DNA from: an uncultured Bacteroidia bacterium
GTDB lineage: Bacteria > Bacteroidota > Bacteroidia > Bacteroidales > Prolixibacteraceae
Direction: 5' to 3'
Assembly (NCBI GenBank): GCA_903905505.1
Contig: CAIVGL010000097.1
Location: 1-62,693, forward strand
DNA length: 62,693 nucleotides
Positions 35,483 through 49,366 of the stretch are shown here, piece after piece (the stretch's first letter is position 1; each line of letters begins with the position of its first letter). The notes under the pieces are model-generated. The model had not been told where the DNA came from, searched no databases, and saw nothing but the letters and a program-made list of their open reading frames with translations. The position numbers and the translations under genes are program-made.

Positions 35483-37972
35483 CTATTCCTTAAAATAAAT
35501 CCGCTTAACACGTTGACCTATTGAGGTCAGGATTTCATATGAGATCGTGCCAAGGTTGGCAGCAACTTCAGTTACAGGAAGCTCCTCGCCAAAGATAATT
35601 GCACGATCACCCTCTTGGGCCTCAACACCCGTAATATCCACCATACACATATCCATGCAGATGGTGCCGACGATAGGCACTTTAACTCCACCAATCACAA
35701 CTTTCCCAACCCCATTGCTAAGCCGTCTATTTAATCCATCGGCATAACCAATTGGGAGGACTGCAATCGTTGTTGGCTGATCGGAGACCCCTCTACGACC
35801 ATAGCCGACCGTCTCACCAGCTTCCACCGTTCGAATCTGCGAAATAGTCGTTTTTAACGTGGCCACATTATGCAAGAGACCCTGTAAATTTGAACTTGCG
35901 CCATATAATCCGATTCCCAGTCGAACCATATCTAATTCAAGATCTGGAAAACGTTCAATTCCCGAAGAGTTTGAAATATGTCTTAGAATTTTATAGTCAA
36001 ATAAATTGGTAACAAGATCACAATAACTCAGAAAATGAGTAAACTGCGATCTTGTAAATAGATCATTTGTAGGATCGTCACTAACAGCAAGATGCGAGAA
36101 TACCGATCTGATATACATCGTATCTCGAGCAAGAATATAGCGAGCTACTTTATCTACTTCAGACGCATTATCAAAACCTAACCGTTTCATGCCAGTATCC
36201 ATCTTCAGATGAATAGGAAAATTATTTACCGCATTTCGACTTAAAGCAGCATCGAATTTCTCGAGCAGTTCGAAGCGATAAATATTAGGCTCAAGACGAT
36301 TTTCAATCATCGCATCAAAACTATGCTCTTCCGGATTCATCACCACGATAGGGACATCAATGCCATTATTACGAAGTTCGATACCCTCATCAGCAATCGC
36401 AACAGCAAGGAAATCGATCTTCTGATATTGCAAAACTTTAGCCACTTCAATCGAACCAGTACCATACGAAAAAGCCTTCACCATGGCCATTATTTTTGTT
36501 CCTGAAGTCAGTTTAGAACGGTAATAATTTAGGTTAAAAACCATGGCGTCAAGGTCGATCTCCATAACCGTTTGATGAGCCTTCTCTTGAAGCAGAGAGG
36601 AGATCCGATCAAAACGATAAGCGCGAGCACCCTTTAGCAAGATAACCTCGTGATTAAAATCACCCTCTTGAAAATGAAGAATAAATTCATCCGCAGATGA
36701 ATAGAAGACTTTTTCGGGCACATTAAAGATGTTACTGTACTGACTAATCTCAGGTCCGATACCGATCATGCGATGAATCTTTCGCATCTCGATATAATCG
36801 GCTATTTCACGATAAAGTGACGATGAATTTTCGCCAGACTGAAGAATATCTGAAATTATTACAGTGCACTTTTTGTTTTTGCTATCCGACTGCTGAACAA
36901 TAAAGTCAAGCGCATTGACCAAAGATGCTGTATCTGAATTGTAGGAATCGTTAATGATCATGCAGCCATTGATCCCCTTCTTCAACTCAAGACGCATTGC
37001 AATAGGGGTAATTTTCCGAAAACGATCGGCAAGCAAATTCGTTGACCGACCAATAGCTAAGGCATAGGCCCAGCAATGTATCGCATTTTCGATACTTGCG
37101 TCATCGAAAAATGGGATCTCAATACGAAGTTCATTCGAATCGAACGTTCCTATAATCTCTGTAAAATCGGCATGCTTCAGCTTTGAAATGATCTGCAAAT
37201 TGGCCGTAGAATCGGATTCCGACCATCTGAAAAATCTGGGATTAGTTGTAAATTCAGCAGTTCTTAAGGCAGTATCTAGTATTTCAAAATCGCAGCAATA
37301 AACGATCAAAGTGCTATTTTTAAATAGCTTAATCTTCTCTTGAACTAACTCTTGAACAGAGCTAAAATTCTCAAGATGGGCCTTGCCTAGGTGAGTAAAA
37401 ATTCCGTGACTGGGGCAAATAATAGCTTCTAATCGCTCCATCTCTCCTGGAAGACTAATCCCTGCTTCAAAAATGGCCAAATCAAATCTATCGTCCATCA
37501 GCCAAACTGACAGCGGATTTCCAATCTGAGAATTATAGCTTCTCGGACTGCGGACTATTTTATTCTCCGGACTAAGGATCTCACTTAGCCACTCTTTTAC
37601 GATCGTCTTCCCATTGCTGCCTGTGATTCCAACGACAGGATAATCGAAACGAGCACGATGAAATGCGGCTAGTTTCTGCAGTGCAACTAATGCATCACCA
37701 ACGACAATAAATTGAATATGTTTATCTGATTGTAAATTCTCAGGAAGTTCCTCCACCACAAACATCGTGACTTCACGGCCAATTGCATCTTGAATAAAAC
37801 GATGCCCATTATTTCGATTGCTCTTCAAGGCAAAGAATAGGGTCTCTTTCCCAGCAAGTATTGTGCGACTATCGAATGATAAAAACCGAATGATAGTATT
37901 AGGCACGTCTTTAGCACCAACCATTCGGCCTCCAATAACTTCAAAAATATCTTTTAATGTATATGGGAACAT
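35483..37972 (-). CDS. murF-alr: Bifunctional MurF ligase / alanine racemase
   Basis: 829 aa fusion. Residues 1-450 are MurF: FDSRTILAGKETLFFAL, the P-loop VVGITGSNGKTIVKEW, SYNSQIGNPLSVW and INDSYNSDTASLVNALDF. Residues 455-829 are alanine racemase: TVMEIDLDAMVFNLNYYR, the PLP lysine in MVKAFSYGTG, MDTGMKRLGF, GYGRRGVSDQP and GTICMDMCMVDIT. The protein joins D-Ala production with addition of D-Ala-D-Ala to UDP-MurNAc-tripeptide. I know this fusion as a Bacteroidota feature, so it supports the taxonomic call. Confidence 0.95.
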   Translation of the reverse strand: MFPYTLKDIFEVIGGRMVGAKDVPNTIIRFLSFDSRTILAGKETLFFALKSNRNNGHRFIQDAIGREVTMFVVEELPENLQSDKHIQFIVVGDALVALQKLAAFHRARFDYPVVGITGSNGKTIVKEWLSEILSPENKIVRSPRSYNSQIGNPLSVWLMDDRFDLAIFEAGISLPGEMERLEAIICPSHGIFTHLGKAHLENFSSVQELVQEKIKLFKNSTLIVYCCDFEILDTALRTAEFTTNPRFFRWSESDSTANLQIISKLKHADFTEIIGTFDSNELRIEIPFFDDASIENAIHCWAYALAIGRSTNLLADRFRKITPIAMRLELKKGINGCMIINDSYNSDTASLVNALDFIVQQSDSKNKKCTVIISDILQSGENSSSLYREIADYIEMRKIHRMIGIGPEISQYSNIFNVPEKVFYSSADEFILHFQEGDFNHEVILLKGARAYRFDRISSLLQEKAHQTVMEIDLDAMVFNLNYYRSKLTSGTKIMAMVKAFSYGTGSIEVAKVLQYQKIDFLAVAIADEGIELRNNGIDVPIVVMNPEEHSFDAMIENRLEPNIYRFELLEKFDAALSRNAVNNFPIHLKMDTGMKRLGFDNASEVDKVARYILARDTMYIRSVFSHLAVSDDPTNDLFTRSQFTHFLSYCDLVTNLFDYKILRHISNSSGIERFPDLELDMVRLGIGLYGASSNLQGLLHNVATLKTTISQIRTVEAGETVGYGRRGVSDQPTTIAVLPIGYADGLNRRLSNGVGKVVIGGVKVPIVGTICMDMCMVDITGVEAQEGDRAIIFGEELPVTEVAANLGTISYEILTSIGQRVKRIYFKE

Positions 37973-38772: not shown

Positions 38773-39480
38773 ATGGGAAAACTATATATTGTACCAACGC
38801 CGATAGGGAATCTAGAAGATATGACGCTTCGAGCGATTCGGATGCTTAAAGAAGTAGACCTGATCTTAGCTGAAGATACGCGAACCTCTTCGGTTTTATT
38901 GAAGCATTACCAGATTGAGACACGACTTTCGTCGCATCATAAATTCAATGAACACAAGACGGTTACTCATCTCGCAGAACGGATTCTTGCCGGAGAAAAT
39001 ATTGCATTGATCTCAGATGCAGGCACACCTTCGATCTCTGATCCGGGCTTTTTATTAACCAGAACCTGCCTCGACATGGGTGTTGAAGTAGAGTGTCTAC
39101 CAGGTGCCACGGCATTCGTCCCTGCCTTAGTAAATTCAGGATTTCCGAGTGATCGTTTCTGCTTTGAAGGTTTTCTACCACAGAAGAAAGGACGTCAAAA
39201 GAAGCTAAAAGAGCTGGTCGACGAAACACGTACTATGATATTTTATGAGTCTCCTTATCGTTTAGTGAAAGCTCTTGAACAGTTTAGTGAATATTTCGGA
39301 GCCGACCGAAAAGTCTCGGTCTCCAGAGAGTTGTCAAAACTTTTTGAAGAGAACTACAAAGGTACGATAACTGAAGTGCTAGCCCATTTCAAATCGAAAA
39401 CTGTCAAAGGCGAGATTGTCATTGTCTTGGAAGGGAAGCCAAGCCTGAAATCGAGTGAGCGGGATGAGGATGATGAATAG
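38773..39480 (+). CDS. rsmI: 16S rRNA (cytidine1402-2'-O)-methyltransferase
   Basis: 235 aa, tetrapyrrole-methylase fold. KLYIVPTPIGNLEDMTLRA, LAEDTRTSSVLLKHY, LISDAGTPSISDPGFLL, CLPGATAFVPALVNSG, FEGFLPQKKGRQKKL and FYESPYRLVKAL are the family signature. It 2'-O-methylates C1402 in the 16S decoding centre. Short form without the C-terminal extension. The long repeat array starts 3 nt after its stop. Confidence 0.96.
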   Translation: MGKLYIVPTPIGNLEDMTLRAIRMLKEVDLILAEDTRTSSVLLKHYQIETRLSSHHKFNEHKTVTHLAERILAGENIALISDAGTPSISDPGFLLTRTCLDMGVEVECLPGATAFVPALVNSGFPSDRFCFEGFLPQKKGRQKKLKELVDETRTMIFYESPYRLVKALEQFSEYFGADRKVSVSRELSKLFEENYKGTITEVLAHFKSKTVKGEIVIVLEGKPSLKSSERDEDDE

Positions 39481-39482
39481 GT

Positions 39483-39965
39483 TCTAATGTGGTGAAAACA
39501 GAAACACAGTAGGTCACAATAGGAAAGACACAGTAGATTCTAATGTGCCTTCTATGTGATCTATGTGCCTAGTGTGGTAAAAAACAGAAGTAAAAGAAAA
39601 TGAACACAGTAGGTCACAATAGGAAAAGCACAATAGGAACAGTAGCTAAAACACAGCAGACACAATAGATTCTAATGTGCTTTCTAATGTGAACTATGTG
39701 CCTATTGTGGTGAAAAAACAGAAACACAGTAGAGCACAATAGGAAAGACATAGTAGACAAAATAGATTCTAATGTGCTTTCTAATGTGAACTATGTGCCT
39801 AATGTGGTGAAAGAAAAAAGAAACACAGTAGAGCACAATAGGAAAGACACAGTAGACACACTAGTTTCTAATGTGCTTTCTAATGTGAACTATGTGCCTA
39901 ATGTGGTGAAAGAAAAAAGATAAACACAATAGGCACAGTAGGAAAAACACAGTAGACACCATAGG
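39483..39965. repeat. Tandem ~100-bp imperfect hairpin units made of CACANTAG octamers
   Basis: Unit starts (ACACAGTAG or ACACAATAG) lie at 39504, 39604, 39724, 39823 and 39924, so spacings are 100, 120, 99 and 101 nt. Each full unit has a left half with three to five octamers of the form CACANTAG (CACAGTAG, CACAATAG) and a right half with about four copies of the reverse form CTANTGTG (mostly CTAATGTG). The last copy (39924-39965) is a left half only, and 39483-39494 is the end of a right half. Spacers between units are A-rich. TAG triplets in all frames make coding impossible. The whole of the 507-nt rsmI-yjjG gap is occupied by it. Confidence 0.95.
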
Positions 39966-39987
39966 TTTAAAGATTTGCAATTTCTAG

Positions 39988-40788
39988 ATGAGCTCTAAAA
40001 AATACACCCACCTATTTTTCGATTTAGACAATACGCTTTGGGATTTCACCTCCAATTCATACCAGGCCCTACTCGCGACTTTGGTAAGTCTAAAGCTCCT
40101 GGATCAGATAGGGTCTTATGACCTATTTTTTAAGATATACAGCGAAGAGAATGACCGGCTATGGGAACTCTATCGGAATCGAAAACGGACAAAACAAGAG
40201 TTGCGCACCCAGCGTTTTGAATCAGCCTTTGAACGTATTGGTATTGATCCAAAGGTTAATGGAACCATACTAAACGAGACCTATTTTAACGAAATGCTTA
40301 ATCAAACGAAGCTTGTAGATGGAGCGCAGCAATTACTAGACCATCTGCACGGAAGATATGAGCTAGCTATTATCACCAACGGATTTACAGAGGTGCAGTA
40401 TGACAAACTAACAAAATCAAACATCTCGCAATACTTCCGAAAAGTATTTATCTCGGAAGAGGTCGGCACTTCAAAACCAGGAAGTAAGATTTTCGAGCAT
40501 GCCCTAAAGTCTATGAATGCACCCAAGAAAAGCACCCTGATGGTTGGCGATAACTGGGACACCGATATCGTTGGAGCCATAAAGTTTGGCATCGACCAAA
40601 TTTATTTCAATCCCCAAATTGAAATGCTTCTAAAGACCAAAATCTACACAACCACAATGAGCAAAAATGGCAAAAAGAACCTCCAAAAAACAAGTTTGAA
40701 TATCACATCTACTTCATTACAAACACCTTCACCTAAGACATCAACTACCTATATTACCCATTTAGATCAATTATTAATAGAATTATAG
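39988..40788 (+). CDS. yjjG: HAD hydrolase, YjjG-type nucleotidase
   Basis: 266 aa; E. coli YjjG is about 225. Motif I FFDLDNTLWDF (nucleophile in DLDNT), motif II IITNGFTEVQ, motif III lysine in SEEVGTSKPGSKIF, motif IV MVGDNWDTDIVGA. YjjG removes phosphate from non-canonical pyrimidine nucleotides. Between IYFNPQ and the closing YITHLDQLLIEL there are about 40 residues rich in Lys, Thr, Ser and Asn (about 212-250) not expected in the family; the corresponding DNA is A-rich. The core is complete, so activity is likely. A weak ATAGAAT/ATTCTAT hairpin (40785-40809) overlaps the stop. Confidence 0.82.
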   Translation: MSSKKYTHLFFDLDNTLWDFTSNSYQALLATLVSLKLLDQIGSYDLFFKIYSEENDRLWELYRNRKRTKQELRTQRFESAFERIGIDPKVNGTILNETYFNEMLNQTKLVDGAQQLLDHLHGRYELAIITNGFTEVQYDKLTKSNISQYFRKVFISEEVGTSKPGSKIFEHALKSMNAPKKSTLMVGDNWDTDIVGAIKFGIDQIYFNPQIEMLLKTKIYTTTMSKNGKKNLQKTSLNITSTSLQTPSPKTSTTYITHLDQLLIEL

Positions 40789-48284: not shown

Positions 48285-48413
48285 CTACCCCTCTTTTGCA
48301 ATGAGGGGTAGCTTAGGATGATATCATCCAAGACTAATGAAAAGCCCATAGAACTGATATGATGCTCGACAATATATTTAAAATCGACCGAAACCCCAGA
48401 GGGGTGATATGAT
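48285..48413. repeat. REP-like hairpins on the left of the transposase gene
   Basis: Contains a hairpin CTACCCCTC (48285-48293)/GAGGGGTAG (48303-48311); a perfect palindrome GGATGATATCATCC (48316-48329); a degenerate REP GCCCATAGAACTGATATGAT (48344-48363); and an intact REP CCCCAGAGGGGTGATATGAT (48394-48413). The last lies 12 nt from the transposase stop codon and points towards it. Confidence 0.85.
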
Positions 48414-48425
48414 TTTATTTAAGCA

Positions 48426-48890
48426 TCATTCCTCATTCCAATCGAACAAATACTTTTCGTCATAATCGACCTTAAAATTATGTAGGAATTCAAGATATTC
48501 CTCTTGAAAAGAGCTACTGCTATGATGAGTTTCTTGATTTAAAATGTAATTATAAACACTTTCAATTTGAGAATATCCATAGGAAAATGATCCAAATCCT
48601 TCTTGCCATGAAAATTTGCTTTTTAGAAAGTTTTGCTCATTAATAAATCTACTGCTATTGTTTTTGATATCTCTTACTAAGTCAGATAAAACAATGGAAG
48701 GACTTAAACCAATCAATACATGAACATGATTAGCAACGCCATTTACTATGATTGACTTTTGACCCTTCGCAGTAATTATCCCAGCCATATATTTAAAAAC
48801 CTCGTTTCTCCATGGTTGTTGAAGCAGATTAGCTCTTCCTCTTACAGCAAAAACAACTTGAATATAGATCTGTGAAAATGTATTTGCCAT
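48426..48890 (-). CDS. IS200/IS605-type Y1 transposase, RAYT-like
   Basis: 154 aa, single Y1_Tnp domain. HUH motif NHVHVLIG (H55, H57), and the catalytic tyrosine most probably Y115 in SVYNYILNQ with Q119 as the helix partner. VVFAVRGRANLL at the start and SPSIVLSDLVRDIKNNSS are typical of Bacteroidota IS200-like proteins. No TnpB is present and no long terminal inverted repeats were found; the gene sits among REP-like hairpins in inverted orientation on either side (48394 and 48925), which fits a domesticated RAYT that moves REPs rather than itself. The reading frame is intact. Confidence 0.88.
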   Translation of the reverse strand: MANTFSQIYIQVVFAVRGRANLLQQPWRNEVFKYMAGIITAKGQKSIIVNGVANHVHVLIGLSPSIVLSDLVRDIKNNSSRFINEQNFLKSKFSWQEGFGSFSYGYSQIESVYNYILNQETHHSSSSFQEEYLEFLHNFKVDYDEKYLFDWNEE

Positions 48891-48924
48891 GATTAATGTT
48901 TTTAATAAAACATCCTATGTCATC

Positions 48925-49349
48925 ATCATATCACCCCTCTGGGGTTTTAAATAATGACACTCCTATAATGATTTCACTCCTATAATAATTTCACTCCTCC
49001 GGAGTTATTCATTTAAAACCCCAGCGGATATTATTCTAAATAATGCCATTAGACCAAACAATTCCCCTTAGGGTGAAATTATCCAAGGCTATTGAAAAGC
49101 CCAGAGGGCTGATATGATACTAAACTACGGAGTTAAAAAAATTACAAATAATATCTAGCGAAAATAATTTCATCCCTCCAGAGTTAGCTATTCAAAACCC
49201 CAATGGGTGATATGATGCTACACAATGGTTATGAGACTAATCAGAAAGCCCATAGGGCTGATATGATACTAAACAACGTATATAAAACAACCCAAAAACC
49301 CCAGAGGGGTGATATGATGCTGGGGTGATATTATGCTGGGGTGTTATGA
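48925..49349. repeat. REP/BIME-like hairpin cluster right of the transposase gene
   Basis: Reverse-oriented copy: ATCATATCA plus CCCCTCTGGGG (48925-48944). Partial reverse copies with a TTTCACTCCT core at about 48970-48982 and 48988-49005 (hairpin ACTCC-TCC-GGAGT). Forward copies: 49064-49082 (CCCCTTAGGG), 49099-49118 (GCCCAGAGGGC), 49198-49216 (CCCCAATGGG), 49248-49267 (GCCCATAGGGC), 49299-49318 (CCCCAGAGGGG), all followed by TGATATGAT or TGAAATTAT, and two trailing half copies GGGGTGATATTAT and GGGGTGTTATGAT (about 49322-49350). Stem changes are compensatory (C...G to G...C). The interval 48891-49366 holds no other gene. Confidence 0.9.
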
Positions 49350-49366
49350 TTATACAATTTAATCAT

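Follow-up and report, generated by a model that had tools for sequence, protein, structure and literature searches.

The repeat array behind rsmI

The window, which is the whole stretch of 62,693 nucleotides that was analysed, belongs to a draft assembly of 2.9 Mb in 129 contigs (97.3% complete, 2.9% contamination). In this window most of the spacer between a TP_methylase gene, which we take to be rsmI, and a HAD-hydrolase gene is filled by an array of short repeats (Table 1). The array contains four complete units of about 100 bp together with half units, and its left arms are made of CACANTAG and its right arms of CTANTGTG. It opens with a right half at the first base past the rsmI stop codon (TAG, 39478-39480) and is closed by a left half, giving the order R(LR)4L. 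When both strands are counted there are 30 matches to CACANTAG in the window and 28 of them lie within 39484-39955; 5.4 are expected in the window and the largest number found in 100 dinucleotide shuffles was 12. This concentration shows that the array described in the original prediction, which was made from the letters of the sequence, is real, and the five unit starts given there (units 1 to 4 and the closing left half) are correct. TRF reports 39651-39964 with a period of 99, 3.2 copies and 91% matches. The inverted arms of the predicted octamer plan were also recovered, but a strict 8-nt period was not, because the spacers between octamers are unequal (in unit 4, they are 2, 6 and 1 nt on the left and 4, 2 and 1 nt on the right). 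Unit 2 is longer than the others and contains decayed octamers. Elsewhere in the window, positions 35483-37972 of the minus strand encode one 829-aa protein that combines Mur ligase and alanine racemase domains.

Table 1. Positions of the array, its parts and the neighbouring genes in the window
Feature	Coordinates	Strand	Remarks
Upstream neighbour, TP_methylase family	38773..39480	+	outside the element
Whole array, R(LR)4L	39481..39967	+	28 CACANTAG matches on both strands; token map
Opening right half	39481..39503	+	one CTAATGTG and a GTGAAA-type stretch; adjoins the rsmI stop codon
Unit 1	39504..39603	+	includes the purine-rich stretch after it
Unit 2	39604..39723	+	longer; left arm with decayed extra octamers
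Unit 3	39724..39822	+
Unit 4	39823..39923	+	most regular; 4 left and 4 right words
Closing left half	39924..39967	+
Downstream neighbour, HAD hydrolase family	39988..40788	+	outside the element

The regular one-base mismatch between the arms, which had been noted before, was confirmed: 26 of the 28 window octamers have a purine at the variable position, on one and the same strand whichever arm they belong to. The idea that arm pairing is maintained at this variable base was rejected, as it is mostly purine against purine. The bias is full in some other arrays (30/0, 22/0, 33/0, 0/21 and 0/24) and weaker or absent in others (11/4, 21/4, 9/3, 7/5, 4/4 and 3/3), and in many words the variable base is missing altogether (CTATGTG occurs 52 times in arrays of the same genome). 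The base preceding TAG is not constant in the iterated words, with 84 cases of CACAATAG, 40 of CACAGTAG and 26 of others.

Folding of 510 nt of the plus strand gave z = -6.4, and folding of a single unit, a check proposed with the original prediction, gave z = -3.3. The shuffles used for these values destroy inverted repeats, and therefore the z scores show the arms and not an RNA function. Identity with a described satellite or REP family had been raised as an objection to the prediction, and no Rfam match above chance level was found; at a loose threshold the array has just two matches, both below the gathering score (E 0.48 and 0.83). A CRISPR array was rejected since the units have inverted arms and the same purine-rich stretch lies between them rather than unique spacers.

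Other clusters in the genome and a nuclease-like gene between two arms

A genome-wide count, also proposed at the outset, gives about ten such clusters in the window's genome. Close pairs of the right-arm word occur 108 times in this assembly vs once for the reversed pattern. Thirteen clusters of at least four words were found in the window and in 11 other stretches of the genome, and flanks shared with sister genomes indicate that L063/L065, L064/L067 and L068/L069 are each the two ends of one array, which reduces the number to about ten. A second unit type, a tandem of about 75 bp, is present at C110/C1 (L068 4012-4253 and L069 43-220) and in L230 of G004. It has three CACANTAG words in a single orientation and an unrelated spacer with ATCACGTTA.

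A search of the same genome with the TIGR04256 profile (E up to 0.01) gave a single match, at C4:118642-118965 with 127.5 bits. This GxxExxY gene is flanked by two CACANTAG arrays, with the left arm on one side and the right arm on the other. It encodes a protein of 137 aa (L061 4077-4490, minus strand) that is above the curated cut-offs of TIGR04256 (127.7 bits vs 35) and Pfam PDDEXK_3 (125.9 vs 22). GxxExxY is named merely for a motif, and no function is given to it in the literature and libraries searched; the portions of papers available contain passing mentions of GxxExxY that state no function, and nothing was found there for PDDEXK_3.

The sequence of the protein points to a PD-(D/E)XK nuclease. 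Residues E29, D69, E79, K81, Q93 and Y97 are invariant across seven aligned rows; across 18 rows E29, D69, E79 and K81 are still invariant and Y97 nearly so, while Q93 no longer is. The predicted catalytic layout D..E-x-K is found in 178 of 181 proteins and a later Q-x3-Y/F in 162 of the 181, and these two in succession are typical of RecB/Cas4-type nucleases. The similarity to Cas4 is below threshold, with Pfam at 0.0014 and PADLOC, which gives weak matches only, at 2.7e-4; the scores are 19.2 bits vs a cut-off of 22.7 for Pfam Cas_Cas4 and 13.4 vs 65 for NCBIfam cas4. Among the best 80 of 559 loci, the closest named homologue is L149 (76% identity), and its predicted model has a mean pLDDT of 94.6. 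The best solved fold match of this model is weak (4ic1, which we take to be a Cas4; E 2.9e-3, TM 0.50), lambda-type exonucleases are also among the best solved matches, and the fold search gave zero matches at E 0.001 or better. A sequence search for solved relatives gave none at E up to 1. It could be suggested that nuclease and arrays form a defence or Cas4-like adaptation module acting on invading DNA, as the sub-threshold Cas4 similarity and the top fold match to 4ic1 are in its favor. However, the units are contiguous with no unique spacers between them and PADLOC finds weak matches alone for the protein, and this suggestion is given very little probability.

Of 61 relatives, 38 have GxxExxY (E up to 1e-10); so do 99 of 198 genomes of the phylum (E up to 1e-15), and there are up to 15 copies per genome. 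The titles of the best 80 of the 559 confirmed named loci come from more than 10 phyla and include one Methanothrix assembly. Carriage by phages or plasmids was rejected, with 0 matches in 50,697 phage records and 7 in 72,556 plasmid records.

Arm words and protein clades at GxxExxY loci

When the flanks of 16 and then 19 loci were read, most had inverted arms on the two sides of the gene, built from repeated words of 7-10 bp that vary between loci. Clear small cases of the arm-gene-arm plan are L186 and L307 (Bacteroides finegoldii, behind radA). Six word classes were defined only after these 35 loci had been read, and a locus was counted when three or more words belonging to one class lie no more than 200 bp from the gene on either side; the distant controls were regions twice as long at 900-1300 bp. 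Words were found near the gene in 111 of 141 loci of the first set vs 12 of 115 distant controls. Because the classes had been written after reading, a second set of 40 loci was taken, and here words were found in 19 of 40 vs 5 of 37 controls. Five of these (L296, L302, L304, L305 and L306) had been chosen in the knowledge of octamer-pair counts, and the words beside the gene were already visible for two of them, L296 and L302, before the choice; without the five, the counts are 15 of 35 loci and 3 of 32 controls. Within the 35, the GPGLLESxY type has words in 11 of 17 loci (controls 2 of 16) and the remaining types in 4 of 18 (controls 1 of 16). The other types in all 40 give 0 of 6 for GNGFQE, 0 of 4 for GLLEKVYEICF, 2 of 6 for GYGFLEK and 3 of 3 for GCGFLE. 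The link to words thus applies to the main GPGLLESxY type and to GCGFLE but does not extend across the family, several divergent subfamilies of which have no words.

The nearest words point toward the gene on both sides in 61 of 102 loci. Bordering the words on the outside, the sequence tends toward TTxAAC (among 195 contexts, A is at -2 in 114 and C at -1 in 101). When one mismatch was allowed, the words exceeded every one of the 10 shuffles at 35 of 59 loci; one further locus was too short. The k-mers shared between the two flanks are a weaker signal, exceeding the 95th percentile of mismatched pairs in 27, 30, 33 and 29 of 59 loci for k of 8, 9, 10 and 12, and shared k-mers occur in the distant control as well (a median of 7 at k 8 and of 0 at k 10).

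The two arms of a locus also match each other better than they match arms from elsewhere in their word class, with means of 17.8 vs 10.3 for GAG (47 loci) and 14.5 vs 9.9 for AAG (38 loci). This resemblance, the strong predicted folding and the position of the window array between co-directional genes would fit an RNA-level role, in which hairpins of transcribed arms may terminate or protect transcripts nearby, or regulate them, and the protein may act on that RNA. This role appears rather unlikely, since pairing is lost at the mostly purine-purine variable base, Rfam has no match at gathering score and the own arm is the best match of its class in only 16 of 47 GAG loci and 8 of 38 AAG loci. 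An RNA hairpin ladder, which the original prediction had also listed, is no more than a possibility.

Between genomes, word class goes with protein identity; it does not go with the genome itself. The share of between-genome pairs with the same word class climbs with protein identity (0.05, 0.23, 0.42, 0.52 and 0.82; 128 labelled loci), and pairs within one genome share a class in 8 of 29 cases (8 of 27 without L300), the base rate being 0.31. On a tree of 117 proteins and 128 columns, in which many forks are weak, 24 changes of word class are needed for 108 labelled rows vs 40-55 in 200 shuffles. A Mantel test on 115 loci gave r = 0.129 for the near flanks (1 of 299 permutations as high) and -0.001 for the far flanks. 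The words of L149, the closest homologue, are CACATTAG/CTATTGTG; later members of the clade are L296 and L302 with TAG words and L300, whose TAG words are decayed and below threshold. Some genomes do not follow a simple correspondence. Word pairs number 29 in G002 and 19 in G005, with no matching gene among the copies read, one per genome (L100 in G002 with AAG words, L306 in G005 with none), and G038 has a gene with TAG-class words (L098), yet zero pairs of the 8-base word. Plain tandem CTAATGTG runs without an inverted plan are seen in G024 (e.g. C93:5502-5605) and G006 (C119), and are perhaps another word class.

Joint descent of gene and arms yields the same pattern as recognition, so the match between clade and word shows that they travel together, and it only suggests that one partner may read the other. 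Protein-binding sites, one of the readings first offered for the array, are compatible with these data because each GxxExxY clade tends toward its own word.

Site occupancy, the proposed element and known systems

At the window site three sister species, G000, G004 and G007, have 33, 40 and 18 words, numbers read from short contigs so that exact array lengths are uncertain. The array is thus not unique to one assembly, which had been another objection to the prediction, as the same site is occupied in three assemblies; nor is it a single copy. Seven congeners with both genes on the stretch have no words in the rsmI-HAD spacer; in the remaining matched congeners the site is cut or the HAD start is unrecognisable. 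In L140 there are two words, at a distance of 570-650 bp behind rsmI. In the congener G016 (L141), CACAAAG-type words lie directly behind the rsmI stop, as if this junction were a recurrent target. Among the array sites listed, those of the sisters are orthologous and no recent jump between the three genomes was found, and hence the arrays change length in place. In G000 and G004 a gene of about 1.4 kb, which by reading resembles an amidohydrolase, lies between two arrays (L062 4112-6187); it has no match in G007, where a single array is present (C45). Either it was lost in G007 by array-array recombination or it was gained in the other two.

Change in place, the 75-bp unit built on the same word and the plain tandem runs in G024 and G006 would all be expected of a passive satellite, in which the arrays are slippage products and GxxExxY merely sits in one of them with no present link. 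This explanation has little probability, as gene and word are found together again and again, at scores of loci that are unrelated and differ in their words, and far controls are low.

The junction of sbcD and sbcC offers both occupied and unoccupied sites, and no target-site duplication was established. In 8 of 15 loci the sbcD frame runs into sbcC and there is no spacer. L249 has a gene-less unit, a GxxExxY cassette and another unit, and sbcD ends there on a stop codon supplied by the element, the TAA within its outer TTAACC. L250, whose SbcC is 96% identical, has a gene-less unit and a half at this junction. Decayed words are found in L252 and L259 and other spacers in L254, L258 and L262.

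Could the arrays instead serve the host, with GxxExxY acting as a resident factor for repair or for the chromosome and the arrays marking its genomic addresses, like Chi or parS? The array sites are stable across the three sister species, gene and words occur together and the fold is of the Cas4/lambda-exonuclease kind. Such a role seems unlikely, because a match is found in just half of the 198 phylum genomes, a genome may have as many as 15 copies with differing words, and the words differ between congeners.

The anatomy, the link of gene and word in many phyla, the match of clade and word, the occupancy of junctions and the change of length in place are established. Our preferred reading, which we give about an even chance of being right, is that the window array derives from a small selfish element, as a copy that lacks the gene and has multiplied in tandem; the autonomous form of the element would be arm-GxxExxY-arm. 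The autonomous element would consist of a gene for a Cas4/RecB-like PD-(D/E)XK protein of about 135 aa between inverted arms, each with a few short words; in the window's genome the element word would be CACANTAG, and the sole gene-bearing copy found sits on contig C4. GxxExxY may be an active nuclease that recognises the word of its own arms, whether in duplex form or as a single-strand hairpin, and cleaves the DNA at that point. Host repair or recombination after cutting would then copy the element into new intergenic sites, and arrays may grow by unequal recombination or slippage among near-identical units. The original prediction had included a non-autonomous element that grew by slippage. 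This part is supported, as orthologous arrays differ in unit number and, elsewhere, one site is found with the gene-bearing form in one genome and the gene-less form in another; the nuclease-like gene within the same repeats on another contig was not visible to it.

A wider proposal is more tentative, and we put its chances somewhat short of even. It holds that there may be a separate class of minimal mobile elements in more than 10 phyla with a lone gene for a single-domain, Cas4-like PD-(D/E)XK nuclease and a specificity laid down as the iterated arm word, in which clade and word change together and the anonymous intergenic inverted 7-10-bp word arrays of Bacteroidota are gene-less satellites. 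No description of such an element was found in the literature, preprints aside. Searches on GxxExxY with repeats, or on intergenic palindromic interspersed repeats of Bacteroidetes, gave no description of the element, and those on CCACAGAG with repeats gave eukaryotic papers alone. The GxxExxY-linked repeats suggest mobile or selfish DNA of a kind that has been little studied. If GxxExxY is the enzyme of the repeats, many anonymous intergenic repeats gain an owner and a widespread protein family gains a substrate. The word-by-clade match would also provide scores of natural protein-word pairs for the study of DNA recognition, and such a role of the protein would bear on how repeat arrays came to lie beside Cas4-like nucleases.

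Several known systems share features with the proposed element. The Rpn recombination-promoting nucleases are PD-(D/E)XK proteins that are tied to DNA rearrangement. They resemble GxxExxY by description in having this fold, and we know of no bracketing word arrays for them. Like transposons with terminal inverted repeats and MITEs, the element has inverted arms around one gene, gene-less derivatives and intergenic insertion. Unlike them, it has no known transposase, its arms are modular words and its gene-less forms are tandem arrays. With the Cas4 nucleases, including solo-Cas4 and MGE-Cas4 as described in the part of the source available (PMC5704561), GxxExxY shares the PD-(D/E)XK core and a weak profile and fold similarity. 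In contrast to Cas4, it is half-size and single-domain, falls below the Pfam and NCBIfam cut-offs and has no CRISPR array seen alongside.

REP/REPIN sequences are, in the portion of the source available, short palindromic intergenic repeats that often form opposed pairs and flank the gene of the nuclease thought to mobilise them (PMC3733652). As in REP/RAYT systems, the intergenic repeats here flank a putative nuclease gene. The enzyme, however, is PD-(D/E)XK and not an IS200/IS605-like HuH protein, and the arms are iterated 7-10-bp words and not one palindrome of 20-40 bp with a fixed GTAG tag. The window also contains an IS200/IS605-like Y1 transposase gene (48429-48890, minus strand), with a weak REP_Tyr_transpos match too, amid REP-like CCCCAGAGGGGTGATATGAT repeats at 48380-49350; this HuH-type repeat system is distinct from the octamer array of the window. 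Membership of the octamer arrays in REP/RAYT was rejected. The genome has four Y1_Tnp genes, with no octamers in the 1.5-2 kb or so examined around each, and the constant GTAG or CGTC tag beside a palindrome is absent. The element works like REP/RAYT but is not a member, because it lacks both the HuH gene and the tag, and if GxxExxY is the enzyme of the repeats it would be a counterpart of REP/RAYT that is neither HuH nor DDE.
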